Source of the DNA: Gemmatimonadota bacterium | GTDB taxonomy: Bacteria; JBHIER01; G020348925 | Length of the DNA: 46,056 nt | Reading direction: 5' to 3' | Assembly: GCA_020348925.1 (NCBI GenBank) | Contig: CP070758.1 | Location: 600,899-646,954, forward strand | In this document: in pieces, positions 11,993 to 29,790 of the stretch | Layout of the letters: each line of letters opens with the position of its first letter | Position numbering within the stretch: position 1 is the first letter of the stretch | The notes under the pieces: generated by a model | Databases searched by the model: none | What the model was told of the DNA's origin: nothing | Seen by the model: only the letters and a program-made list of their open reading frames with translations | Position numbers and translations under genes: made by a program

Positions 11993-14227
11993 TCAGAAAC
12001 GCGCCTCCATACTCCCCCGCCAATGCCTGCCGGGCAGGGGCGCACGCTCGATCATCTCGTATTCTTCATCCCAGAGATTCAGAACAGAAACCTTGAACCG
12101 TATATCACCTCCCATCACTCCTGTGGAAAACAGCGCACTGATGTCATCCGCAACATACGGCTCCATGCGAACGGTATTGGCTTCCGTCACGAACCGCTCA
12201 CCGATCATTCGCCTTCTATAATCGATTGAAAAGGCCCCGACATCGAGCCCGACGCCAATTTTCGTTGTGCGTTCCGCTTGATAGGGGAGCACCCTGTCGT
12301 GCGTGGTCCGCTCGCCACTCTTGTTGAGCGGTTCAAGAACGACATGACTCAGGGACATGTTCAATCTGTCCTTCCAGGGGTGCCAGTTTCCGCAAAATTC
12401 CCAGCCGGATATGAGGGCATCCGTATTGAATGGCGAAAAAGTGGCGAAGGAGCCCATGCGCCAGACGATGAGATCGTCGATATCGCGGCGAAAGTAGCCG
12501 CCCTCCAACTCAAACCAGCCGTAAACCGGAACACCCAACCGAACACCGACATCAATATTGACGCTGGACTCAGCCTTCACGTCGGGATTCCCCCGAACAC
12601 GGAAATCCTGATAGAAGAGATCGGCCAATGTCGGTGCCCGAAAGGACTGCCCCCAATTGGCTTCGAGAGCCAGGGCATATCCCTGATTTCTGGAGATATG
12701 AAGCCCGAGATGGGGGCTGAATTCCTCCTCCGTGCGCGCTGTCCCTCCGTTCTTGAAATCAATCGCATCATAGCGGAGCGACGACGACAGGCTCCCTCGG
12801 GTCCCGGAGAGAGGCAGCCCGAATCGAGCTTCGGAATGCAGGCCGAAACCTCGGCTGTTATTCAGCGCCCGACCAACACCGCTCGTTCCTGGCCCCAAAA
12901 GATCTCTATCCTCCAGCTCATCACGCCGAAGAGTGGCATTGCATCCGAATTTCAAAACCTTTGATGGATTCCAATCGAACCGAATTCCACCCTGATGAGA
13001 AGTGAGCGCATACAGATTCTGGTACGGCGGTTGGCTTCGATCCTCAAGGGGCGCATCGATCGGTGGAAGATGGCGATATTCCGTATCATTCTCGTGGCGA
13101 GAGAGATGTCCCCTCCAGTGCCACGTGCGCCCTTCGAATCGGTGGTCGAGGATGAAGATCCGCCGATCGGTTTCGGCCCGGGCGTGTGGCGTCAAAGCAA
13201 AGATCAAGCCCGGAAGTCCTCGCTCTGAGTCATACAGGTTCGCTTTGAACGTCACCTCATGTCCGCCCCTCTGGAAGGCGACGGTACCGAACAAATTGTG
13301 GTCGCTGAAATCAGCATTCCGCCTCCTGGTTTGAACGATCTCGCTATCGCCCTTCACGGTTTCGAAGACATACCTTCCCCCGTCCTTCATGTGGTCGTAT
13401 TGCCCGAAAAAGGAGAACTCCTTCCACCTGCCTGAGCAACCGGGATTGATTCCCCAGGCCTGAAAATTCCCGCATGTCAGTTTACAACGTACATCATTTA
13501 GGGAATTGCTCCTCGTCACAATATCGATGACACCACCCAGAGCCCCACTGCCGTAAAGGTGAGAGCCACCGCTCTTCGTAATTCTGACCTCTTTCACCAT
13601 AGACAGGGGTATGAGGGACAGATCGACATCCCCGGTCAGCGGGTCGCTCAAGGAGACACCATCCACGACAACGATCACGTGATTGGAGCGACTGCCTCGA
13701 ATCGAGATGCGTTTTCGGCCCGATCCTCCCCCCTCATCGATGATGTCAACGCCGGATACATGCTCCAGAAGCTCACCCACTGTACGGGCATTGCTCTTCT
13801 CAATCTCTTCGAACGTCAGGCGTTTTACGAAGTTCGAAGTCTCGAGCTGAGATCCAACTCCCTCTGCGACAATCTCATCGACAGGGAGAAAAATCCTGCG
13901 CAGCTCGAAATTGACTGCAGCTATTGTCTCACGACGTACGACGACAGTCTTCGTATGCTGCGTCTCATATCCGACAAACCGTGCCCGCAGGGAGTATTCT
14001 CCGGCAAAAAGATTCTCGATGCTGTAAAATCCCCTCTCATCCGTAAAAGCCCCATAGCCGGTGCCCTCGACGAGGATGGTGGCGCCCACGAGGGGCACTT
14101 TCGTCTCCGCATCAACGACACGGCCAACAATCTTAATTGTTGACTGGGCATCCAGTGTGCTCAGTGTCAGGCACACCAAAGCCACCGACATGAAGAGCTG
14201 GCACAAGATTCCCACCGGTCTCAACAT
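11993..14227 (-). CDS. TonB-dependent receptor, BtuB-like, predicted cobalamin transporter
   Basis: After a signal peptide (MLRPVGILCQLF to LDAQ), residues about 30-110 form a carboxypeptidase-regulatory-like domain (VGRVVDAETKVPLVGATILVEG). A TonB plug follows with ISIRGSRSNHVIVVVDGV and GSGALGGVIDIVTR. A beta-barrel of about 520 residues ends in aromatic Phe (EARF), as outer-membrane barrels do. It is 744 residues from the ATG at 14227. A TTG at 14248 would add seven residues and neither has a strong ribosome binding site. The gene sits between the S component and the propeller gene, all behind a cobalamin riboswitch, so B12 or another corrinoid is the likely cargo. Energy would come from TonB-ExbBD, not encoded here. 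Confidence 0.88.
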   Translation of the reverse strand: MLRPVGILCQLFMSVALVCLTLSTLDAQSTIKIVGRVVDAETKVPLVGATILVEGTGYGAFTDERGFYSIENLFAGEYSLRARFVGYETQHTKTVVVRRETIAAVNFELRRIFLPVDEIVAEGVGSQLETSNFVKRLTFEEIEKSNARTVGELLEHVSGVDIIDEGGGSGRKRISIRGSRSNHVIVVVDGVSLSDPLTGDVDLSLIPLSMVKEVRITKSGGSHLYGSGALGGVIDIVTRSNSLNDVRCKLTCGNFQAWGINPGCSGRWKEFSFFGQYDHMKDGGRYVFETVKGDSEIVQTRRRNADFSDHNLFGTVAFQRGGHEVTFKANLYDSERGLPGLIFALTPHARAETDRRIFILDHRFEGRTWHWRGHLSRHENDTEYRHLPPIDAPLEDRSQPPYQNLYALTSHQGGIRFDWNPSKVLKFGCNATLRRDELEDRDLLGPGTSGVGRALNNSRGFGLHSEARFGLPLSGTRGSLSSSLRYDAIDFKNGGTARTEEEFSPHLGLHISRNQGYALALEANWGQSFRAPTLADLFYQDFRVRGNPDVKAESSVNIDVGVRLGVPVYGWFELEGGYFRRDIDDLIVWRMGSFATFSPFNTDALISGWEFCGNWHPWKDRLNMSLSHVVLEPLNKSGERTTHDRVLPYQAERTTKIGVGLDVGAFSIDYRRRMIGERFVTEANTVRMEPYVADDISALFSTGVMGGDIRFKVSVLNLWDEEYEMIERAPLPGRHWRGSMEARF

Positions 14228-14260
14228 TATGTTATCCGATTTCGTCAATCTCTGAATCGC

Positions 14261-15081: not shown

Positions 15082-15140
15082 GCATTCCTGTAGATACAAA
15101 AATGTCGTCTAACCTCCCCTCGAAGGCCAACGAGTTAAAC

Positions 15141-15330
15141 GACACAGGCAGGTCTCCTGGCTCACGGTATCACCTTCTCCCGACCTTCCCATCCTGTGAT
15201 TCAGGACAGTGGTCCCACGGAGAAGCGGAGGAGCTGTGCTCCCTCAAACCGATTACAGTGGCGGGGCCGCGACGGAATCTCACCGTCTTCCCTTATTCTC
15301 CCCGAAGTATCGGGGCACCCGCGTCGATTC
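15141..15330 (-). ncRNA. cobalamin riboswitch
   Basis: On the minus strand, the conserved core GCCACTGTAATCGGTTT (complement of 15246-15262) is present, with AAGGGAAGACGGTGAGATTCC upstream in two adjoining parts and the B12 box GAGCCAGGAGACCTGCC (complement of 15148-15164) at the 3' end. Order and spacing match the cobalamin aptamer. It is transcribed toward the ECF S component, the BtuB-like receptor and the propeller gene. An intrinsic terminator follows, so B12 binding is expected to switch the operon off. Confidence 0.96.
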
Positions 15331-15347
15331 TCTTCAATTGTGCGCAC

Positions 15348-15615: not shown

Positions 15616-16806
15616 TCAACACCCCTCTCTTTTATACTGCCTTGTGAGTTGATCCTTCTTCTCAATGAACCGAGGCTGCCCGCCAAAATATCTGCTGATC
15701 TTCATTCTCTTTTCCTTCTGGTCCTCATTCATTTCTGCCGAACCGGAAATATCGGGAAAGAGTATCGTTTCCATCCACGCGTTCAATCCACCTTTCAAAC
15801 AATATATTTCTTCCGTACCGATTTCACCCAGAGCCATTAAAGTCTTTCTCGGAACTGTTCCATACTGGGTGTATACGATAATAACCTCCTTGTCGACGAC
15901 GGATCCATCGCGCACGGAACCTTCCGGAGCGTGTTTGGCAAACGGGATATGATACGTTTCAAACTGCATTTTCGAACGCACGTCCAATATATCGAAATCG
16001 TCTTTCTTCTCCATGATCCGATCAGCCAGCTCCTGTACCTCAAGATATCTCAGGGTGACCCCATCAAACCTTTCCTCCAATACTGTGATGCTTGAGCCAC
16101 GATTGTCCTTCGATGGATTTCCGACGACTGCACTGAACAAGGCAAGCACAAGGGCACCGAGGGCAAGCACTCTTTGAAGGCGAAACTTTCCAGGCGAAAT
16201 GCCCATGGCGTGACTGTTCTGTACTCGAAGCTTTCTCCGTTCAATGAGTTCGGCTCCGGCGAACCCTCCCAGCGCCATCATTACAACGCCCAATACGATG
16301 AGCCCTTGAGGAATGTGAAGCAACCGGGGAAATGTGACATGCCCCCATGAGGTGAAATACAAGACATCGTCAAAAAGCGCGAAGAGCTCTCCGAAAGCAA
16401 AAATCCCGAAAAATATCCCCAGCAGGGCAACGAGCCCGTCAATCTTCCCCGTGGCCGAAGCCACCAGGCACGTCCCCGGACAGAGACCCCCTATCACAAA
16501 ACCGACGCCGAAAATCAAACCGGCAATGAGCTGAGGAAAAACATACGTGGGATTGACATACACGAGCGAGTCGTCAACAAGACCCAACCAGGAAAGCCAA
16601 AAAAGACCGAGCATCGCCGTGACAATTGCCGTGAACATAACTTTGAAAAACGCAAGATCGGTAAAGTAGAACTGGGCCGCCATTTTCTTCGCATTCCCCA
16701 GTCCACCTCTTTCCAAGAAAAAGCCGAAGGCAAAGCCAACGGCTAAGGCGACAACCAAACTGGCATCGAAATTGAAAAAACCGAATTTATAGAACGGGGC
16801 TGTCAT
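15616..16806 (-). CDS. YeeE/YedE-family transporter half fused to a cysteine-less rhodanese domain
   Basis: The 396-residue protein begins with a membrane domain of about six helices (residues 15-230) of the YeeE/YedE (TsuA-like thiosulfate uptake) family, with the cysteine motif LCPGTC (C109, C113). Residues about 240-350 form a rhodanese-like domain (ILDVRSKMQFETYHIPFA, LKGGLNAW). Its active loop reads YTQYGTVPR, with Thr at the place of the catalytic Cys (T313). It could bind but not covalently carry sulfur. The start ATG at 16806 has AAGGAGG upstream and overlaps the previous stop by 4 bases (ATGA). Probably pairs with the other half-transporter to import thiosulfate. Confidence 0.85.
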   Translation of the reverse strand: MTAPFYKFGFFNFDASLVVALAVGFAFGFFLERGGLGNAKKMAAQFYFTDLAFFKVMFTAIVTAMLGLFWLSWLGLVDDSLVYVNPTYVFPQLIAGLIFGVGFVIGGLCPGTCLVASATGKIDGLVALLGIFFGIFAFGELFALFDDVLYFTSWGHVTFPRLLHIPQGLIVLGVVMMALGGFAGAELIERRKLRVQNSHAMGISPGKFRLQRVLALGALVLALFSAVVGNPSKDNRGSSITVLEERFDGVTLRYLEVQELADRIMEKKDDFDILDVRSKMQFETYHIPFAKHAPEGSVRDGSVVDKEVIIVYTQYGTVPRKTLMALGEIGTEEIYCLKGGLNAWMETILFPDISGSAEMNEDQKEKRMKISRYFGGQPRFIEKKDQLTRQYKREGC

Positions 16807-17378
16807 GTCCACTGCCTCCTTATAAAATGAGCCGCTGCATAAGCACCTACAAAAACGGAAATCATGAAAATCCAGCTCCCGACGCTCAGGAGCGCACCGC
16901 CGGTCAACGCCTGCCCACTGGTGCACCCGCGGGCCATCTTGGCGGCAAAACCCATCAGTGCACCACCACCGAATGCGAAGAACAACCTGCCGGTCGAAGA
17001 GATCCTCGGTCCTCGGATTATCGACACCCGTAATCTTCCGGCAAGAAGGCCGGAGAGAAATCCACCGACGAGAACACCGAGAATTTCGAAAACGAGCCAA
17101 TCCTTCAGAGGATTTTTGTTTTCGAGATACGTGCTGTACATTCCGTTCGCCTGCGCATGCTCTGGAGCTAACGTGTGAACAGCCGTTGACACGATCGCCG
17201 TGTATCCTCCCGAGGCCCCCAGGCCACGACCCATTATGACAAAAGCGGCCAGCAGCGTAAGCCCCAACCCGATCCCGGCGAGATACGGATTCCAATACCT
17301 CCGAGGTGCTTTCTTCGTTCTTTCTCCTTCCTCCAAATCCGAACCGTACGTCTCGATATCATCACGTTCAGAGTACAT
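16803..17378 (-). CDS. YeeE/YedE-family transporter, N-terminal half
   Basis: This 191-residue membrane protein has a basic cytoplasmic N-terminus and about four or five helices, including the conserved FGGGALMGFAAKMARGCTSG with the transport-associated cysteine. Family members such as TsuA carry both halves in one chain. Here the halves are separate genes with a 4-bp ATGA overlap, which suggests translational coupling and a heteromeric transporter. The start at 17378 has AAGGAGG upstream. It lies 19 nt after the exported sulfurtransferase gene, so all three form one operon. Confidence 0.87.
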   Translation of the reverse strand: MYSERDDIETYGSDLEEGERTKKAPRRYWNPYLAGIGLGLTLLAAFVIMGRGLGASGGYTAIVSTAVHTLAPEHAQANGMYSTYLENKNPLKDWLVFEILGVLVGGFLSGLLAGRLRVSIIRGPRISSTGRLFFAFGGGALMGFAAKMARGCTSGQALTGGALLSVGSWIFMISVFVGAYAAAHFIRRQWT

Positions 17379-17397
17379 ACCCCCTCCTTGGAGTCTG

Positions 17398-18330
17398 TTA
17401 TTGATACGGTCGTATCTTCACAGGCTCTATTACCGGTAAAGTCTTATCACCGGTCCATTCCTGAAATGAGCCGTCGTAAAAGCGAACGTCATACCCGAGA
17501 TACTTGGCCGCAAAGTAAACCGGGCTGGCCCATATTCCCGTACCGCAGTAGATCACTAAAACCGAGCCCGGTTTCGCACCGTTGTCCGAAAATATCTCGG
17601 CCAATTCCGCCGCATCTTTCAATTGAGACGGCGAGTCCTCAGTCATCAACTCAAAGAACGGTATATTGAATGCTCCGGCAATATGTCCGCGTCTCTTAGA
17701 ATGACTATCCCTTTCAATACCGGTGTACACCTCCTCCGGCCTGGCGTCTATGATGACGATATTTGGATTTCTGATATTGTCGTTGATCCATTTTCCATCG
17801 ACAAAAACATCCGCATTCGGTCGAGGAGTATAATTTCCGGTTAATGCTTCCGGTAATTCTGCTGTCAGCTTCCGATTTTCGGCTTTCCATCGAGGAAACC
17901 CACCTTGAAGCATCGACGTACTGTCCCCCAGACCAGCATAATCCAGGGTGAGGAGAAGGCGGGTGGCCAACGAAATTCCTCTTGATTCCGCATAATAGAC
18001 CACAATCCTTGAAGTGTCACTCACCCCTGCTGATTTCAGAACGGAATCGAGTTTTGCGATGGGAGGCCTTTCGTGAAAGAGCCCATTCGGGGAATTCACA
18101 ACAACCTCAAGCAGCGAAAAAATACGCGCACCAGGAATATGCTCCTTGTCATACCCCTCCTTTCTCCCGACATGCAGGAGCAACAGAGAAGGATCGGCCA
18201 AGTGTTCTTCCAACCATTGCGTCGTGACAAACATTGATTCAACCGGACTTTTGCCGGAGACGGTTGATATTGAAATGCATGAAAAGATGAGAATGGCTGC
18301 GATCGTAATCCTAAATCCCGGTTTATTCAT
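17398..18330 (-). CDS. exported two-domain sulfurtransferase (rhodanese / mercaptopyruvate sulfurtransferase type)
   Basis: The 310-residue protein has a signal peptide (MNKPGFRITIAAILIFSC, ending near SGK) and two rhodanese domains. The C-terminal active loop is YCGTGIWAS with the catalytic C262. The N-terminal domain has YYAESRG and lacks Cys, as in classical two-domain enzymes. The enzyme would transfer sulfane sulfur from thiosulfate or mercaptopyruvate to an acceptor in the periplasm. AAGGAG precedes the ATG. It heads an operon with the two YeeE/YedE genes, so thiosulfate handling at the envelope is the likely role. The signal sequence could alternatively act as a membrane anchor. Confidence 0.88.
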   Translation of the reverse strand: MNKPGFRITIAAILIFSCISISTVSGKSPVESMFVTTQWLEEHLADPSLLLLHVGRKEGYDKEHIPGARIFSLLEVVVNSPNGLFHERPPIAKLDSVLKSAGVSDTSRIVVYYAESRGISLATRLLLTLDYAGLGDSTSMLQGGFPRWKAENRKLTAELPEALTGNYTPRPNADVFVDGKWINDNIRNPNIVIIDARPEEVYTGIERDSHSKRRGHIAGAFNIPFFELMTEDSPSQLKDAAELAEIFSDNGAKPGSVLVIYCGTGIWASPVYFAAKYLGYDVRFYDGSFQEWTGDKTLPVIEPVKIRPYQ

Positions 18331-18423: not shown

Positions 18424-20316
18424 TCAATCGAGCCTGGTTGCCGGCTGGTCTATACCGTTCTGGTGCAGCACGAGGTGGGTGACTTGACCACGGCCGTCTT
18501 TCACAAACGTCAATTGCGCATCAATCAAGGCATAACAGAAGTCCGTCTCCGACTCCGCGTACATCTCGAGCTCCTGCTGACCCGTGAGCTGTGAGTAGAG
18601 TTTCCTCCCTTCAGCTTTGACGGAAAGAATGATCCCCGGAACGAACTCATACCGACCGGCGTAGGTTCGGAGAATTTCCGGATCCAATTCAATCACTTTG
18701 CGTCCGGCCGGTGGCTGAGTCTTTTGTGCGGCCGGCTTCCGTGTGTCGGCTTGGGTGGCAGGGGACGATTCCGTCAGATGTTCACGGGAGAGCATATGAT
18801 CGAGATTTGCAATTCCCAGGGCCCCCCAAGCGATCACCGTTGCGGAGTGTTTCTGGTACTCGGGAACAACCATATCATAGGTGTCGAATTGCGTGTGATG
18901 GCATCTCCAGTACGGGGTATCCCCCGACTGATCCCACATAAAGGACGGCACACCGGCCCCCAGAAAAACCATGTGATCGCTCATACAAAATGCAGCGCGA
19001 GTCGAGCCACAGCCCGCATGTAAGGCCGCTTTTCCGCCAGGGGACGCCTCGGGGCTTCCGTTGCCCGAAGCGCATGACGGTGTCCTCGGGTTGGGATTGC
19101 AGCAGCTTGTAGAATACAAAGGCAGGCGGTCCACCTGTTCTATGTCAAAGGGCATATCCTGGTTCAGGGTTCTGACAGGAGAAAATATCCCCTCAAAATC
19201 TTCCACCATAGCCTCGGTGGCGAGAATGCCGGAAATGTAGTCGCTCCCGTAGTCCATGTTCAGGACGGCCGAGATTTGTGGCATCAGCTCTGAGTGATCG
19301 GCCACATACCCCTTGGAACCGAACAAGCCTTGCTCGTGACCGCCGAAGAGAATAAAGCGAATCGTTCTGCGGGGCCTGGCTCCGGATTCCATCAGTATTC
19401 GTGCCGCTTCCATGGCCGCGGCGACCCCTGTCCCGTTGTCGCAAGCGCCGCTGGCCCCATCCCAGGAATCCAGATGAGCCCCAACGATCACATATTCATG
19501 CGCCAGGTCCGTCCCGGGAATTTCGGCCACCACATTGTAGATGGGAATGGGACCCTTCTTAAAGTAATTCCGGATGTCAAAGGCGAGAACGACCTCTTCA
19601 TTTTCAGATATGTAATTCGCAATCTCCTTCCACTCCTGTCCCGGGAGGATGATCACAGGAGTCTCCGGCAACGCTTCCCATTCAATAAGATAGTTGCCGA
19701 AGGATTGCAGGAGCTCATCATCCACTGATGGAATGAGTACACCGGCTAGAGTGAGATTGAGTTCCTGTCCCTTTTTCAAATATTCGGCGCTCCTGCCTCT
19801 TTTTTTGTCGGGATCCCATACGATCCAAGATCCTTGAAATTCCGAACGTCTCGTCTCCAGTTCATCCACCGTCTCTGGCCCCATGACGGCACGCGCCACA
19901 ACCCGACCGCTTGTTCCCGCTGTCCACGCCGGTGTGGTGAAATGGAGATCCTGGGTCACAGGGTTCATGATGGATCCGTACGATTGCCCTCGATTGAAGC
20001 CGACCGGCATCTCAGCGCACTTCTCCAAATGGACGTTTGTCAAGCCGAAGCTTTGAAACCTGTCAAGGGCCCATTCACAGGCATTCCGCAGGTTGTCGGA
20101 ACCCGTCAAACGCGGACCGATCCTGTTGGTCAGATGATCCAGGTGCTCCATGACTCTGTTGTCGTTTCTACCAATTGTAAGAATGCGCTCCTGAAGATCC
20201 TGACCGTCGACGAGGGCGGATGTGCCGCAGAGGTATCCCGAAATAATAAAAATGATCACTATCATCAAGCCTGAGTAAGACCTCATAGTGACGAGACTTT
20301 CTCTTCCTTTTCTCAT
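18424..20316 (-). CDS. exported M28-family peptidase-like protein with catalytic Glu replaced by His
   Basis: This 630-residue protein has a signal anchor (residues about 12-35), an M28 aminopeptidase/carboxypeptidase Q-like fold with PA insert, and a C-terminal DUF3471-like beta domain (about 550-630). Zinc ligands are visible: H281 and D293 (GAHLDSWDGASGACDNGTG), E328, Asp of NMDYGSD, and His of CHHTQFDTYD. The family motif GEE, whose first Glu is the general base, reads GHE (H327). The protein may be inactive or use another base. A Cys-containing insert (STSCCNPNPRTPSCASG) precedes the SDHMVFLGAG strand. Start supported by AAGGAGGAA. It is paralogous to the gene at 22977-25037. Confidence 0.87.
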   Translation of the reverse strand: MRKGRESLVTMRSYSGLMIVIIFIISGYLCGTSALVDGQDLQERILTIGRNDNRVMEHLDHLTNRIGPRLTGSDNLRNACEWALDRFQSFGLTNVHLEKCAEMPVGFNRGQSYGSIMNPVTQDLHFTTPAWTAGTSGRVVARAVMGPETVDELETRRSEFQGSWIVWDPDKKRGRSAEYLKKGQELNLTLAGVLIPSVDDELLQSFGNYLIEWEALPETPVIILPGQEWKEIANYISENEEVVLAFDIRNYFKKGPIPIYNVVAEIPGTDLAHEYVIVGAHLDSWDGASGACDNGTGVAAAMEAARILMESGARPRRTIRFILFGGHEQGLFGSKGYVADHSELMPQISAVLNMDYGSDYISGILATEAMVEDFEGIFSPVRTLNQDMPFDIEQVDRLPLYSTSCCNPNPRTPSCASGNGSPEASPGGKAALHAGCGSTRAAFCMSDHMVFLGAGVPSFMWDQSGDTPYWRCHHTQFDTYDMVVPEYQKHSATVIAWGALGIANLDHMLSREHLTESSPATQADTRKPAAQKTQPPAGRKVIELDPEILRTYAGRYEFVPGIILSVKAEGRKLYSQLTGQQELEMYAESETDFCYALIDAQLTFVKDGRGQVTHLVLHQNGIDQPATRLD

Positions 20317-22976: not shown

Positions 22977-25037
22977 TCAGATACTGCGGCCGCAGCAGCT
23001 TTGCGTTTTCGAGGATGAACTTCCAGGCGGACAGCAATCCTTGCTCTGAGTCGGGCAGCAGCCGCTCTCCCCCTGCGGACAACAATCACCATTTCTTTGT
23101 CCGGCCGTGCAACATCCTGACGGACAACATCCGCTTGCTTTCGGATCCGGAGTCCCTGTTGTTTTCGAGCTGTGAGGATAATACCCCGTCTCAACTGATG
23201 TGGATTTGATCAGTGAGGATTGTTCCTCGAACAGGAACGAACCGGAGCCGGCAGGCTTCGATGACGTTTCATCGTCAACCAAGTTTTCCCTTAAAAGCAG
23301 ATGATCAAGGTTGGCAACGCCGAGTGCCGCCAGGGCAATCACTGTCGCGGAGTGCTTCTGGTATTTTGGAATCACCTGCTCGTACGTGTCCCTTTGCGTA
23401 TGTGGATAGTATGGAACAGGATTCTCACCCTGCTGCATCCACATGAAAGCCGGCACACCGGCCGCCAGAAACTGAGCGTGATCGCTCGAACCCACCGCCT
23501 TGACAATCCGCTTGCGAGTAGTAGTAGCTTTCTCCTCAGCGGTCACGTTCTGTTTCGTAAAGGCTTGCCCTCCGCACCCACCACCTCCACATCCCCCACC
23601 TCCCTCTGTGTTTTTCACCAGGGACTGTCCTCCGCAGCCGCCACCCCCACCACCGCATCCTCCTCCACCCCCGCCTGAATCCGTCACAAGGGAGGGGCTT
23701 CCGCAGCCACCACCGCCGCATCCGCTATCGGCTATTTTTTCCTTGATAACAGTTTTGCCAACACCACCAACCATCAGTGGAGAACGGGCCGGTCCGTTTC
23801 CACAGCAGTCTGTTATTGTCTGGGGCAGGCTCTCGACCAATCCAATTCCGAAAGGCATATCTTCATTCAGAGATTTGACCGGGGCGAAAATCTCCTTAAA
23901 ATCCTCCAGCATCGGCTCGGTGGCAAGAATGCCTGAGATGTAATCGGCACCCTGGTCCATGTTGAACATGGCCGAAATTTTATCCAATTGATCTGAGTGG
24001 TCCGTTACATAGGCCCTCGAACCCAGCATGCCCACTTCTTCCCCAGCGAAGAGGACAAAACGGATTGTTCGTCGGGGACGGATTCCGGCCTCCGCGAGGA
24101 TTCTCGCTGCCTCCATGGCAGCAGCCACACCAGTACCATTATCCGCAGCTCCCGTGGCTCCGTCGTGAGAATCAAGATGCGCTCCGACGATCACATACTC
24201 ATCCGGCAGCTCGGTACCGGGGATGTCTGCGACCACATTATAAATCGGTATCGGCCCTTTCTTGAAATAGTTCCGGATATCGAACTCAAGCGTAACCTCC
24301 TCACCTTCTCCCAACAGATCGGCTATCTCTTCCCATTCCTCCTGCAGAAGGATTATGCTGGGAGTCGTGGGTAGGTCGTCCCACTCGAGGCCTCGATAAT
24401 TGCCAAAAGTATGAATGAATTCCCCCGAAGAAGGAAGGATGACACCTGCTACGTCAAAGTTCAGTTCATCCCATTTTTCGATGTACGATGCATTCTTCTC
24501 CGGGTCGTCGAAGGGACGCCACAGTATCCATCTCCCTTCGATATCCGCACCCATCTTCTCCAGGTCATCCTCGGATTCGGGGGCAAGTACAGCTCGAGCA
24601 CTCGTACGACCACGAGTCCCCGCAGTCCAGGCATGGGTCGAGAAGTGAAGGCGCTTGTTCTTCGGCGACAGAATGGCTCCTGATGAGGTGCCGCGATTAA
24701 AGCCGATGGGAATTTCCGCAACCCGCTCCAGATGAGCATTGGACAGGCCGAAGCGTTTAAACTGATCGCGGGCCCATTCACTGGCTGTTTGATAGTTGTC
24801 CGAACCGGTTTGACGGGGTCCTATCCGGTTCGTAAGATGGTTCAGATGGTCCATGACTCTGCTGTCTTTTGTACCGACAGAAATGATCCGGTCATGAACA
24901 ACGCCGCTTTCGATGAAGCTGGACTTTCCCGCATGGCTCTTTGCCATCATAGCGTTGTTGGATGTACACGAGATGATACCTGCGGCCAGAAACACAAAAG
25001 CAGCGAAATATACAAGAGTTCTCGATATTTTTCTCAT
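22977..25037 (-). CDS. M28-family peptidase lipoprotein with Gly/Cys-rich insert and CC-rich tail
   Basis: The 686-residue lipoprotein (lipobox before C24, AAGIISC) is an M28 carboxypeptidase Q-like enzyme with intact residues H287, D299 (GAHLDSHDGATGAADNGTG), E333-E334 (AGEEVGMLGS), NMDQGAD and YPHTQRDTY. Two features are odd. An insert of about 55 residues (437-491) is almost only Gly and Cys (GCGGGGCG, GGCGGGGGGCGG, GGGCGGGGCGG), just before the SSDHAQFLAAG strand. The C-terminal about 54 residues hold six CC pairs (SGCCPSGCC, DCCP, GCCP, DCCP, SCCG). Both could bind metal or form disulfides. The frame extends to 25100, but the ATG at 25037 has GAGGAGGTG and the lipobox. Paralogue of the gene at 18424-20316. 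Confidence 0.88.
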   Translation of the reverse strand: MRKISRTLVYFAAFVFLAAGIISCTSNNAMMAKSHAGKSSFIESGVVHDRIISVGTKDSRVMDHLNHLTNRIGPRQTGSDNYQTASEWARDQFKRFGLSNAHLERVAEIPIGFNRGTSSGAILSPKNKRLHFSTHAWTAGTRGRTSARAVLAPESEDDLEKMGADIEGRWILWRPFDDPEKNASYIEKWDELNFDVAGVILPSSGEFIHTFGNYRGLEWDDLPTTPSIILLQEEWEEIADLLGEGEEVTLEFDIRNYFKKGPIPIYNVVADIPGTELPDEYVIVGAHLDSHDGATGAADNGTGVAAAMEAARILAEAGIRPRRTIRFVLFAGEEVGMLGSRAYVTDHSDQLDKISAMFNMDQGADYISGILATEPMLEDFKEIFAPVKSLNEDMPFGIGLVESLPQTITDCCGNGPARSPLMVGGVGKTVIKEKIADSGCGGGGCGSPSLVTDSGGGGGGCGGGGGGCGGQSLVKNTEGGGGCGGGGCGGQAFTKQNVTAEEKATTTRKRIVKAVGSSDHAQFLAAGVPAFMWMQQGENPVPYYPHTQRDTYEQVIPKYQKHSATVIALAALGVANLDHLLLRENLVDDETSSKPAGSGSFLFEEQSSLIKSTSVETGYYPHSSKTTGTPDPKASGCCPSGCCTAGQRNGDCCPQGESGCCPTQSKDCCPPGSSSSKTQSCCGRSI

Positions 25038-25164: not shown

Positions 25165-25623
25165 TTATATCCTTGATTCTTGCACTGATCGAACCATGAC
25201 CGTTGCCGTCTCGGGGCAGATTGTTGAAAATTCAGACGATTCTTTGATTTCGTCCGGGACAGAAGATCGATTAACAGCACGAAATCCGAACCGTTTGAAA
25301 TAGTGGTCGGCATCTGTGGTAATAAGATACACGTCTGACAATTCATTCGCTCTGGCCCATGACAGGCGATTCTTTACAAGAGCTTCCCCGATCGATCTCT
25401 TTCGCCATTCAGAGTCAACCGCGCAGGAGCGCAGTAAACCGTGCGACCCATAAACTTCGATCCCGGCGACTCCGATGATGTGATCTTGGGACTCAGCAAC
25501 ACAGTAGGACTCCTCAAAATGCTCATCAACGCCTTCAAGGGGAAGATTGGAGTCCAACAGCAATCCCTTCACACTCTGTTCATCTTTACCCCGTGCAGGT
25601 CTTATGTGATATGATCGTTCCAT
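25165..25623 (-). CDS. GNAT-family acetyltransferase, ArsN2-like
   Basis: The 152-residue protein has the pattern of ArsN2-type N-acetyltransferases: LLLDSNLPLEGVDEHF at the start, VAGIEVYGSHGLLRSCAVD, an acetyl-CoA loop RKRSIGEALV, YLITTDADHYFKRFGF, and a C-terminal CPETATVMVRS. ArsN proteins are linked to arsenic, and in ArsN1 to phosphinothricin-type arsenical, detoxification. No other ars gene is nearby, so the substrate is uncertain. The ribosome binding site is weak. It lies downstream of a bipartite upstream element also found before the ABC ATPase gene. Confidence 0.82.
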   Translation of the reverse strand: MERSYHIRPARGKDEQSVKGLLLDSNLPLEGVDEHFEESYCVAESQDHIIGVAGIEVYGSHGLLRSCAVDSEWRKRSIGEALVKNRLSWARANELSDVYLITTDADHYFKRFGFRAVNRSSVPDEIKESSEFSTICPETATVMVRSVQESRI

Positions 25624-25656: not shown

Positions 25657-25804
25657 GCTTCTCCGGTCCGTATTCCCTTTGACTCAAAAACTCCCAAAAA
25701 GTTGCAAATGACAACTATAATTATCCGCAATCACTTCTTTGGAAAAACAATTCCACTTAGAGGTAATGCTGTACATTGAATGGAAGTGACTGGACCGGAG
25801 AAGC
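25657..25804. repeat. perfect 13-bp inverted repeat pair, 122 nt apart
   Basis: GCTTCTCCGGTCC at 25657-25669 is exactly matched in inverse by GGACCGGAGAAGC at 25792-25804. The pair encloses the bipartite element at 25678-25716, upstream of the acetyltransferase gene. A further imperfect hairpin (GAAGTG/CACTTC arms, 25783-25816) overlaps the right arm. It could be the ends of a tiny mobile element or a long-range RNA or DNA structure. No gene is seen in 25624-25900. Confidence 0.6.
25678..25716 (-). promoter_or_regulatory. bipartite upstream element, copy 1 (before acetyltransferase gene)
   Basis: On the minus strand: AGTTGTCATTTGCAACT (an inverted repeat AGTTG/CAACT), then 14 nt, then GAGTCAAA. 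The second copy at 29163-29201 has the same parts with the same 14-nt spacing. It lies 55 nt before the acetyltransferase start codon. Confidence 0.55.
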
Positions 25805-25900: not shown

Positions 25901-28309
25901 TTACTCATACTTGATTGCATTTACCGGATTCGTCTTGGCGGCCTTGACAGCCTGATAGCTCACAGATACCATCGCGATACATATGGCAAGAATTCCTGCC
26001 AGAAAAAACGTCTCCAGACCCATATGCAACCGATAGGGATAATTCTCAAGCCAGCGATACATGACGTAGTATGCAATCGGCCAGGCAAGAATATTTGCGA
26101 TTGCCACCAGAATCAGAAACTCTTTTGAAAACAATTGAACAATGCCCCCAATGGAAGCACCGAGGACTTTCCGAACTCCGATCTCCTTTGTCCGCTGCTC
26201 TACGGCGTACGAGGACATGCCGAACAGACCAAGGCACGCGAGAAAGACCGCCAATACACTGAAAGAGAGTGCAATATTACCCAGGTTCTCTTCGGCGCGA
26301 TATTGGCCCTCAAGGGATTCGTCCAGGAAGTAGTAATCGAAGGGCCGACCGGGAGCGATTTCCTCCCATTTTTTCTTCAACTGAGCTATCGTCGTTGGTA
26401 CATTGTCAGATGCGATCCGAACTGCAATAAGATTGAAACTGTGAGCGGCATTGCCGATAAAAAGTGGTTCGATTTCAATGTGGAGGGAGGCCAGATGAAA
26501 ATCCTTGACCACACCGACGACCCTTCTCGGTGACCATTCCACCTGGCCCGCTCTCAGATTGACACGTCGCCTGATGATCTTTCCGATCGGGTCCTCCCAG
26601 CCGATTTCCCTGGCAGCCGTTTCATTGATGATTGCTGACTCCATGCTGTCCGTCGCAAATTCGGCAGAGAAATTCCTCCCGGCCACCATATCCATACCCA
26701 TCGTTGAAATGAACCTGTCGTCAATATCCATCATCCTCATCATCTTTGTTTCATCTTCCGAAAATCCCTCCGGCAGAAAAGGTGCCATCATTCCGCCTCG
26801 GCCGGGGATCCCTGTTGATGCACTGACGTTTCTCACTCCAGGCAAACGGGCAAGCTCATTTCTGATTCCATGAATGGGCAAACGTTCGGAATCACCAACA
26901 TTTGGTAAAACAACTACGTGCTCTTTGTCAAAACCGAGCATTTTGTTTTTCATAAACCGTATCTGTTCGAATACCGTCATCGTTCCAATGATGAGAGCGA
27001 TGGAAATTGCAAACTGTGTGACGACGAGAACACTCCGAAATCGAGACTTCGAGGAACCGGTTCGAACACGACCTTTCAAAGCCCTGACCGGTTGAAAGGA
27101 TGACAGAAAGAAGGCGGGATAGCTGCCGGCGATAAACCCGACGAAGAGCGCCAATCCGACAAATCCAGGAAGGATCCACGGTTGTCGTATGTAGTTCACA
27201 TGCAATTCGCACCCGGCGAGGGAGTTAAATATAGGCAGAGCCAAAGGGAGGAGTATTGATGCAAGAAAGACAGAAAGCAAGCCGCAGATTATGGATTCAC
27301 AAAGAAATTGCCCCACCAATTTGCCACGACTGGCTCCCAGTGTCTTTCTCATCCCGACCTCGTTGGCGCGCGTCGCCGAACGGGCCGTGGTGAGATTGAT
27401 GAAGTTGATACAGGCTATCAGCAAAATAATGAAGGCAATCCCAGAGAACAGGTATACATAGACAATATCTCCTCTTCCTCCGGGATCGCTCTGGAGATTC
27501 GAGCGGAGATGGATGCTGGTTATGGGTTGGAGAAACAGCTCCAATGTGCCTCCGACCGCTCTCAACTTTTCGCCGGAGTATGTTTCGACGAAGTCGGGGA
27601 GCTTTCGCTCCAGGTTCTTGGGGTCGCTTCCTTGAGCGAGCAGAAGATACGTATAATAGCCCAACCATCCCCAGACCTCCATTCCTGGGCGCTTCTCAGC
27701 GTACAGCGTTTCGAAGGAACAGAGCACATCAAACGTAATATGCGAATTCTGAGGCACATTATGTATGACGCCCGTAACGGTGAAGTTCGTCTCTCCGTCG
27801 AATTCGAGAATCTTACCAACCGGATCTTCTTCATCGAAGAACTGACGGGCCACATCTTCGGTAAGGACGACCGAATGGGCGGTCAAGAGCGCAGAAGCAG
27901 GATCACCGCTTATCATGGGGAATGTCAACACTTCAAAAATCGAGCTGTCGGCATAGCGAACCTCCTCAATTTGGAGTTGCTTGTCTCCGTGCTTCACTGA
28001 GGAACTGGACTCAGGCGTAATCCTGACGGCGTTGACAACCTCCGGATAATCCCGGATCAGACCAAGTGCCATAGGAGGGCTCGTCATCGGCGCACGCCGA
28101 TTCGCTCCACCGAGAGTGAGATCCGTGCCCAGACGGTATATTCGATCCGCTTTCGTATGAAACCGGTCAAAACCCAGTTCATTGGCAATCCACAACATAA
28201 TCAAAAGGCAGCACATGATACCAATAGCCAGACCCGCTATGTTTAAAAAGGAATACATTTTAAACTTTCTGAAATTTCGAACGGCGACTTTCACATAGTT
28301 TTCATACAT
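25901..28309 (-). CDS. ABC transporter permease, MacB/FtsX type
   Basis: The 802-residue protein has the layout of long FCB permeases: an N-terminal helix (YSFLNIAGLAIGIMCCLLIM), a periplasmic MacB-like domain, a three-helix FtsX block (about 290-430), a second periplasmic part, and a last FtsX block with RTKEIGVRKVLGASIGGIV. The family is usually mechanotransmitting, moving peptides, lipoproteins or drugs without a channel. The start is the ATG at 28309 giving MYENYVKVAVRNFRKFK, the usual N-terminus; an upstream TTG at 28315 is less likely. It lies 87 nt after the matching ATPase. The substrate is unknown. Confidence 0.9.
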   Translation of the reverse strand: MYENYVKVAVRNFRKFKMYSFLNIAGLAIGIMCCLLIMLWIANELGFDRFHTKADRIYRLGTDLTLGGANRRAPMTSPPMALGLIRDYPEVVNAVRITPESSSSVKHGDKQLQIEEVRYADSSIFEVLTFPMISGDPASALLTAHSVVLTEDVARQFFDEEDPVGKILEFDGETNFTVTGVIHNVPQNSHITFDVLCSFETLYAEKRPGMEVWGWLGYYTYLLLAQGSDPKNLERKLPDFVETYSGEKLRAVGGTLELFLQPITSIHLRSNLQSDPGGRGDIVYVYLFSGIAFIILLIACINFINLTTARSATRANEVGMRKTLGASRGKLVGQFLCESIICGLLSVFLASILLPLALPIFNSLAGCELHVNYIRQPWILPGFVGLALFVGFIAGSYPAFFLSSFQPVRALKGRVRTGSSKSRFRSVLVVTQFAISIALIIGTMTVFEQIRFMKNKMLGFDKEHVVVLPNVGDSERLPIHGIRNELARLPGVRNVSASTGIPGRGGMMAPFLPEGFSEDETKMMRMMDIDDRFISTMGMDMVAGRNFSAEFATDSMESAIINETAAREIGWEDPIGKIIRRRVNLRAGQVEWSPRRVVGVVKDFHLASLHIEIEPLFIGNAAHSFNLIAVRIASDNVPTTIAQLKKKWEEIAPGRPFDYYFLDESLEGQYRAEENLGNIALSFSVLAVFLACLGLFGMSSYAVEQRTKEIGVRKVLGASIGGIVQLFSKEFLILVAIANILAWPIAYYVMYRWLENYPYRLHMGLETFFLAGILAICIAMVSVSYQAVKAAKTNPVNAIKYE

Positions 28310-28396
28310 CCGCAATTTATCCTAAAGTATCTATCCCATTCGTATCAGTTATTGTTTCCTGAGAGAATGCAAACGACATTCCGAAGTTTCAATGTT

Positions 28397-29086
28397 TTAA
28401 AGATGAAATGTATTCACATCGTTTTCAGCAATAAGCCTACCGTCAAAAATGTGGACTGTTCTGTTGCAGAACTCCGCGTATGCTGGGGAATGCGTCACCA
28501 TAAGGATGGTCGTTCCACCCTCATTCAACATTTTCAACAGATTCATTACATCATCGCCATGTGTTGAATCGAGATTTCCTGTCGGCTCATCAGCCAGAAT
28601 AAGTTTTGGATGAGCGACGACGGCCCGAGCCACGGCAACCCTTTGCTGCTGGCCACCTGATAATTGCACAGGAAAATGATTTCTCCGGGCCATTATCTCC
28701 ATTCGATCAAGAATTTCATCCACACGCCTCTTCCGTTCAGAGCCGGCTATTCCTAAATAGAGAAGGGGCAGTTCGACATTCTCGAAGACGGTCAACTCGT
28801 CGATCAGATTGAAGCTTTGAAAAACAAAACCGATATTGCCTTTTCGAAACTGAGCTCGACGCCTTTCCGAGTACTGTGTGACATCTTCACCGAGTAAGAG
28901 ATATGTTCCCTCCGTCGGATTATCCAGAAGACCCAACAGATGGAGAAGAGTCGATTTACCGCATCCGGAAGGTCCCATAATGGCCGTGAACTCGCCCTCT
29001 TTCACCTCTAAATTGACGCTGTCGAGGGCGGTCGTTTCAACCTCATCAGTGTAAAACACCTTTTTCAAATTGTCTGTTCGAATCAT
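28397..29086 (-). CDS. ABC transporter ATP-binding protein, MacB/LolD type
   Basis: The 229-residue ATPase has Walker A GPSGCGKST (38-46), signature LSGGQQQR (142-149), Walker B LILADEP (162-168), the D-loop of GNLDS and H199 of the switch. The block LGLLDNPTEGTYLLLG and FNLIDELTVFENVELPL place it in the LolD/MacB branch that partners FtsX-type permeases. AAAGGA precedes the ATG. Probably one transcript with the permease gene. Expression is probably controlled by the bipartite element upstream, with the MarR gene 161 nt further up. Confidence 0.93.
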   Translation of the reverse strand: MIRTDNLKKVFYTDEVETTALDSVNLEVKEGEFTAIMGPSGCGKSTLLHLLGLLDNPTEGTYLLLGEDVTQYSERRRAQFRKGNIGFVFQSFNLIDELTVFENVELPLLYLGIAGSERKRRVDEILDRMEIMARRNHFPVQLSGGQQQRVAVARAVVAHPKLILADEPTGNLDSTHGDDVMNLLKMLNEGGTTILMVTHSPAYAEFCNRTVHIFDGRLIAENDVNTFHL

Positions 29087-29162: not shown

Positions 29163-29201
29163 TTTGACACATATCGGAAATTAAAGTTGCAGGTGACAAC
29201 T
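29163..29201 (-). promoter_or_regulatory. bipartite upstream element, copy 2 (before ABC ATPase gene)
   Basis: On the minus strand: AGTTGTCACCTGCAACT, then 14 nt, then GTGTCAAA, matching copy 1 (25678-25716) in both arms and spacing. It lies 77 nt before the ATPase start codon. A possible -10 hexamer TAGAAT follows downstream near 29147-29152. Confidence 0.55.
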
Positions 29202-29246: not shown

Positions 29247-29735
29247 TTAAGGTGAGGAAAATCGTTTTGATGCTGCGCGCGCCAGTCGAGCGACGAGACG
29301 GATAGTGGCCTGTCTTATGTCCGGATCGAAGTCAGTGATCATCTTCTTCATCTCACCGGCCAACTCCTTCTCAATCCTGTCATGGAGGTCCTTGCCCCGC
29401 TGAGTCACCTCAAGGCGCAAGGCCCGGCCATCTTTTGGATCCGCCGAGCGTTTGACGTAGCCTTTGCGCTCCAAGGAGTCAACGACTCTACTGGTCGTGC
29501 TTTTGTCGAGGAAAAGCTCGGCAGCCAGCATATTCAACGACATCGTGCCGAGACGAGAAAGTGCGTCTATGGCGTAGCACTGGGTTATAGAAACATCCTG
29601 GTAGCAAATGCGTTTGCGGTCTCGAAACTGATACACCCGAACGAGCTCGCTCAAGGCCTCATGGAGCTCCCAGGCATCCTGTTCAAGGGTATTGCCCTGA
29701 ATGAGACTTCCCGATTCTTTCGCGGTTGATGGCAT
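29247..29735 (-). CDS. MarR-family transcriptional regulator
   Basis: The 162-residue protein has a winged helix-turn-helix (LSRLGTMSLNMLAAELFLDKSTTSRVVDSLERKGYV) followed by the wing (SADPKDGRALRLEVTQRG) and a helical dimerisation end. MarR proteins are usually ligand-released repressors. An upstream GTG at 29750 is in frame, but it contributes the AGGAG that serves as ribosome binding site for the ATG at 29735, so I use the latter. A long palindrome over its own promoter points to autorepression. The ABC transporter downstream on the same strand is a likely target or operon partner. Confidence 0.92.
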   Translation of the reverse strand: MPSTAKESGSLIQGNTLEQDAWELHEALSELVRVYQFRDRKRICYQDVSITQCYAIDALSRLGTMSLNMLAAELFLDKSTTSRVVDSLERKGYVKRSADPKDGRALRLEVTQRGKDLHDRIEKELAGEMKKMITDFDPDIRQATIRLVARLARAASKRFSSP

Positions 29736-29759
29736 AAATTCACTCCTCACTCGAATCGC

Positions 29760-29790
29760 ACATTATCATTGTTACTAACAACAATAATGT
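29760..29790 (-). promoter_or_regulatory. palindromic operator of the MarR gene
   Basis: A 31-bp palindrome has outer arms ACATTAT/ATAATGT and inner arms TTGTTA/TAACAA: 13 of 15 positions pair around a single central base. It overlaps the -10 hexamer (29781-29786) and runs past the predicted start site, the classic place for an autorepressor. Confidence 0.7.

Follow-up and report, generated by a model that had tools for sequence, protein, structure and literature searches.

The question raised by this locus is what two cysteine-rich segments are doing in an exported zinc peptidase of the M28 family, and whether the genes around it indicate a ligand for them. The gene lies in a stretch of 46,056 nucleotides from a Gemmatimonadota bacterium (the window), and the features discussed here are collected in Table 1.

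Table 1. Positions of the peptidase gene, its cysteine segments, neighbouring genes and palindromes in the window
Feature	Position	Strand	Remarks
M28 paralogue	18424..20316	-	shorter Cys-bearing insert, catalytic Glu replaced by His; 2.7 kb downstream of M28 gene
M28 zinc-peptidase lipoprotein	22977..25037	-	686 aa, 21 Cys
C-terminal tail, residues 636-686	22980..23132	-	six CC pairs, predicted disordered
Cys-bearing insert, residues 411-517	23487..23807	-	about 107 residues, 8 Cys, directly before S518-D519-H520
Gly/Cys block of insert, residues 439-490	23568..23723	-	three CX4-6C units
arsN2-type N-acetyltransferase	25165..25623	-	NF040501, 146 bits, cut-off 125; directly upstream of M28 gene
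Palindrome before arsN2-M28	25700..25716	.	exact 17-bp AGTTGYN5RCAACT
MacB/FtsX-type duplicated permease (ADOP-like)	25901..28315	-	
ABC exporter ATPase	28397..29086	-	
Palindrome before ABC exporter	29185..29201	.	exact 17-bp
MarR regulator	29247..29750	-	conserved C49 and C58
Palindrome overlapping -10 of MarR promoter	29768..29782	.	one mismatch to GTTGYN5RCAAC

The peptidase and its cysteine segments

The M28 gene starts at an ATG (25037) preceded by a strong Shine-Dalgarno sequence, GAGGAGG, and its product matches the Pfam profile PF04389 (Peptidase_M28) with 130 bits (cut-off 21.3). The metal ligands of the family (His, Asp, Glu, Asp, His) and the Glu base are intact as H287, D299, E333, E334, D361 and H546, and AlphaFold gives a confident core, mostly above pLDDT 90, for which the top Foldseek match is 3iib (E 1.2e-30). 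Together with a lipobox (GIISC, Cys24), these features bear out the first-pass annotation of an otherwise intact zinc M28 lipoprotein, and the protein is predicted to be an exported, lipid-anchored zinc exopeptidase. The Asp of the S518-D519-H520 motif is invariant in an alignment of 40 homologues, and in M28 aminopeptidases the region of this motif borders the substrate pocket.

Apart from the lipobox residue, the cysteines fall in the insert (8; residues 411, 412, 440, 445, 461, 468, 483 and 488) and in the tail (12), with none at all in residues 25-410 and 516-636. The tail residues form exactly the six CC pairs described beforehand, at 637/638, 642/643, 652/653, 660/661, 668/669 and 681/682. 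An insert of 55 residues of nearly pure Gly and Cys had also been described; the insert is real, but it extends over about 107 residues, with a Gly/Cys block of 52, and "nearly pure" is an overstatement since Gly (30) and Cys (6) make up 69% of that block. Within the block, a CX4C or CX6C motif with SLV-like letters after it can be read three times in degenerate form. With Cys at a background frequency of 1.1%, the binomial probability is 3e-5 for at least 8 Cys in the 107 residues of the insert and 1e-13 for 12 Cys in 47 residues of the tail, both values being descriptive only because the segments were chosen by eye. Residues 410-515 and 595-686 are predicted by AlphaFold to be disordered. 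The protein is not itself a metallothionein: it is a 686-residue enzyme, rather than a small Cys-rich protein matching a metallothionein profile, and Pfam gives only M28/M20.

Two trivial origins of the insert were considered and ruled out. Repeat expansion or an assembly artefact is contradicted by mixed Gly codons (13 GGA, 12 GGT, 6 GGC, 5 GGG), by a longest exact DNA repeat of 10 nt, with TRF reporting just 2.3 copies of one 15-mer, and by the presence of the insert in other lineages. Nor does the genome have a general fashion for GGCGG: there are 20 matches, including four inside the M28 gene, and the reversed control has 17.

The insert among M28 homologues

Searching of a genome collection, with alignment, yielded two close homologues, at loci L043 and L015, in unclassified bacteria. 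Both contain a Cys-bearing insert at the identical site, so that the proposed check, a search for the same insert in M28 homologues, had a positive outcome; the inserts open with CC, contain further Cys, and are filled with acidic rather than Gly-rich sequence. A Cys tail is present again at the C-terminus of the L043 protein and is missing from that of L015, and AlphaFold predicts the L043 insert with too little confidence for its Cys to be placed. Within the window, the insert of the M28 paralogue, STSCCNPNPRTPSC (CC...C...GC), corresponds to that of the M28 protein and occupies the same site. The paralogue has GGHEQG in place of the base Glu, keeps all metal ligands, ends in a C-terminal DUF3471 domain, and is perhaps a non-catalytic binding partner. 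A theme of Cys shared with the adjacent proteases had been suggested, and it holds for this paralogue only; the ACGGGGVG stretch of the aspartyl protease, with one Cys, looks incidental.

In the alignment of 40, the three M28 proteins linked to MarR, together with the paralogue in the window, have 55-125 residues with 4-8 Cys at the insert site, where all 36 others have 8-15 residues and no Cys. The insert is therefore an old trait of one M28 branch, most extreme in the Gly/Cys version seen in the window, and the concern that it is an artefact of one strain or assembly, absent from all relatives, is not upheld. Only about four of the insert Cys look conserved, because the filler differs fully between lineages. 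Further relatives were sought in 98, 192 and 5 more genomes, which gave only distant M28 proteins or genomes already known; the distant proteins of genome G004 (L009, L010) have no insert, and P0001 searched against plasmids gave one distant match. Elsewhere in the genome that contains the window, eight M28-like genes with open frames of about 1000 aa lie within 24 kb (G000:C1:2574933-2598639).

Gene neighbourhood

The window genes run on one strand throughout in the order MarR, ABC ATPase, duplicated permease, GNAT (arsN2) and M28, shortened to MarR-arsN2 (GNAT)-M28 in L043 and to MarR-M28, with arsN2 absent, in L015. The curated NCBIfam family for arsN2 is matched above its cut-off in L043 also, with 139 bits. 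No adjacent ArsR, ArsC or ACR3/ArsB gene was found among the scanned window genes, arsN2 being the sole classical ars gene beside the M28 gene. The gene run closes with a YeeE/YedE-type sulfur transporter-rhodanese fusion and a two-domain rhodanese (15616-18330, minus strand), and beyond it a cobalamin riboswitch (114 bits; 15130-15337, minus strand) precedes a TonB-dependent receptor gene (11993-14248).

All three genomes encode ACR3. In that of the window, a second ars operon about 0.4 Mb from the M28 gene (L132 6509-11816; G000:C1:201-207 kb) encodes ArsR, ACR3, an ArsP-like permease, a DsbD/CcdA-type membrane protein and two thioredoxin-like proteins, one of which has a lipobox-like Cys. 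The expectation of a matching Dsb system is thus partly borne out, and the DsbD-type and thioredoxin-like proteins could provide periplasmic reductant for an exported thiol protein.

The MarR regulator and its putative operator

The MarR proteins of L043 and L015 are 62% and 57% identical to that of the window. The nearest annotated MarRs, encoded on Pseudomonas plasmids and 43-55% identical, are in ars loci: that of P. nitroreducens adjoins arsN1, arsD and arsA, that of Pseudomonas sp. XWY-1 is near arsC, ACR3 and arsH, and that of P. amygdali faces the arsinothricin genes arsQ-arsL-arsM. The MFS protein beside the P. nitroreducens regulator was considered as a possible ArsQ and rejected, as it is ArsK-like, with a score below cut-off. 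On three Deinococcus plasmids a distant MarR (26-28% identical) stands directly before arsN2, with ArsR and ArsC genes also nearby at two of the three. C49 and C58 are invariant in the eight MarRs aligned, and several of the plasmid proteins have CC or CXC at the C-terminus. The MarR group occurs in 2 of 386 sampled genomes (those of the window and of L015), and none was found in viral contigs. In NZ_CP127046.1 (L119 5815-6013) a MarR of this group lies opposite the arsinothricin operon arsQ-arsL-arsM, with the palindrome described below in between, and is a candidate arsinothricin sensor.

A palindrome scan of the upstream regions revealed one recurring site, GTTGN7CAAC. It overlaps the -10 element of good sigma-70 promoters before the MarR gene in the window (TTGACA-17-TATTGT, 29809-29781), in L043 and in P. 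nitroreducens; it also precedes arsN2-M28 in L043, and in L015 it stands before the M28 gene itself. The Deinococcus MarR promoters have two or three copies each, placed around the MarR start and in some cases in the first codons (L140 4461-4539, L141 4482-4544, L142 4239-4301). Because the motif was first noticed partly on sites of the window, L043 and L015, counting was done with a consensus, GTTGYN5RCAAC, that can be derived from four Pseudomonas sites alone, with expectations from first-order shuffles. Exact matches number 2 in the window (0.10 expected), 2 in L043 (0.03) and 1 in L015 (0.008), and all of them stand before the expected genes. The 17-bp form has no further copy in the three genomes (about 13 Mb searched).

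The M28 gene thus appears, from its upstream sequence, to share a putative operator with an ars-associated regulator, which ties it to the MarR regulon by evidence independent of its Cys; membership in that regulon is very probable. The regulator-operator pair itself seems to be spread over several phyla.

A proposed role in arsenic defence

A switch common to the M28 gene and an arsenic-resistance gene in three distantly related bacteria suggests that the peptidase is a so far overlooked part of arsenic defence. The MarR protein is likely an arsenical-responsive repressor, and the M28 protein its extracytoplasmic effector. We infer that MarR, with its two conserved Cys, would repress itself, the ABC exporter and arsN2-M28 from GTTGYN5RCAAC sites over their promoters, and would come off the DNA when its thiols bind a trivalent arsenical, whether inorganic, methylated or arsinothricin-like. 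The peptidase, located beyond the inner membrane, would then expose 20 Cys in two flexible segments, of which the insert adjoins the SDH motif. These might trap As(III) species, which are thiophilic; such arms could plausibly serve as ligands, given that both vicinal and spaced thiols bind trivalent arsenic. The peptidase, if active, may cleave a small peptide that bears arsenic or is linked to it. Since ArsN1 acetylates arsinothricin, a glutamate analogue, and arsN2 products more closely resemble N-acetylglutamate synthases, an arsenical of peptide or amino-acid type is an attractive candidate substrate; the acetylation study concerned ArsN1 only, not ArsN2 (PMC6465285).

Taken whole, the proposal of an arsenical-responsive MarR regulon in which the M28 protein acts as exported effector and binds trivalent arsenicals through its Cys segments is given a probability of roughly 0.5. 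The main doubts are that arsN2 is the only adjacent ars gene, and one for whose product a substrate is not established; that three genomes only are involved, with both arsN2 and the Cys tail missing at L015; and that MarR proteins sense drugs and oxidants too, an arsenical being only the presumed ligand of this one. The thiols of an exported protein could also be prone to oxidation. With regard to the functions first suggested for the segments, metal storage or sensing is narrowed to arsenic by the putative operator that the M28 gene has in common with arsN2 and a Cys-bearing MarR related to regulators of ars loci, with binding still presumptive, and a disulfide-linked surface layer found no support. 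A wider and more tentative proposal, with the odds against it, is that Cys-bearing MarR repressors with the operator GTTGYN5RCAAC may be multi-phylum arsenical sensors, which in some deep lineages would drive a Cys-armed secreted M28 peptidase that captures and processes organoarsenicals.

Alternative explanations

The module could instead confer resistance to an antibiotic of peptide or amino-acid type, whether or not it contains arsenic, in which case MarR would sense the compound, the ABC pump export it, the acetyltransferase cap its amino group and the peptidase hydrolyse it outside, with the Cys segments shaping or gating the active site or forming disulfides. A MarR protein with an exporter, an acetyltransferase and a peptidase is indeed a familiar type of drug-resistance set, the catalytic residues of the peptidase are intact, and the ABC genes match the darobactin exporters DarD/DarB, with scores below cut-offs. 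However, the related MarRs and ArsN genes are found in ars loci, and gating would need fewer than twenty Cys in disordered segments, which makes this explanation unlikely. Less likely again, the segments might bind another soft metal (Zn, Cu or Cd) or buffer redox, arsN2 then being linked to the gene through a general regulon for thiol or metal stress. Many soft metals are ligands of Cys-rich segments, some MarR proteins sense redox state through their thiols, and the gene run ends in rhodaneses and a sulfur transporter; the palindrome regulon, however, comprises MarR, the ABC exporter and arsN2-M28 only, with no copper or zinc gene, and in two other phyla plasmid-borne MarRs of this group are found in ars loci.

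That the insert is a tolerated low-complexity loop devoid of function, with the peptidase alone being of importance, would agree with a filler that is not conserved across lineages and with the predicted disorder of insert and tail, but is improbable given Cys at the same site in four of four branch members and none of the 36 others, the lack of a DNA repeat, the avoidance of Cys in the rest of the mature protein, and the recurrence of tail Cys in L043. Finally, maturation as a Cys-rich peptide, that is, the Gly/Cys block being cut out by proteolysis to yield a modified peptide, of thiazole type or another, is hardly credible in spite of a composition resembling Gly/Cys-rich heterocyclised peptides such as microcin B17, as the block is embedded in an otherwise intact enzyme rather than a short precursor, no peptide-modifying enzyme is present among the window proteins scanned, and the Gly block is missing from the homologues.

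Significance

All arsenic defences known to us are either cytoplasmic or based on efflux. An exported peptidase that has Cys arms and is controlled by an arsenical-type regulator would, if true, be a new kind of arsenic effector, and extracytoplasmic capture or processing of organoarsenicals a detoxification step so far undescribed. The MarR group, with its defined operator, is a likely arsenical sensor that is testable in cultured Pseudomonas and Deinococcus, and the MarR-arsN2-M28 linkage offers a lead on ArsN2. The open-licence articles searched contain nothing relevant that links MarR to arsinothricin or ArsN, or M28 peptidases to arsenic.

Comparison with known systems

Each part of the system comes from a known family; none of the open-licence articles searched describes their combination, an M28 peptidase with Cys arms within an arsN/MarR regulon. 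By sequence and fold, the peptidase is best matched by the group of PDB 3iib (Shewanella amazonensis Peptidase M28), with which it has the metal ligands in common. In 3iib, however, a Cys-free loop of about 10 residues leads up to the conserved Asp, at the place of the long insert of the window protein; the group has no CC tail and is not known from ars loci. Metallothioneins and other Cys-rich metal-binding peptides likewise have a high local density of Cys and vicinal Cys pairs, but the segments in the window belong to an exported enzyme and matched no such family. The ars loci on Pseudomonas and Deinococcus plasmids resemble the window in having a MarR with C49 and C58, GTTGN7CAAC at the MarR promoter and an acetyltransferase neighbour, but contain transporters (the ArsK-like MFS protein, ArsQ) and flavoproteins in place of an M28 peptidase.
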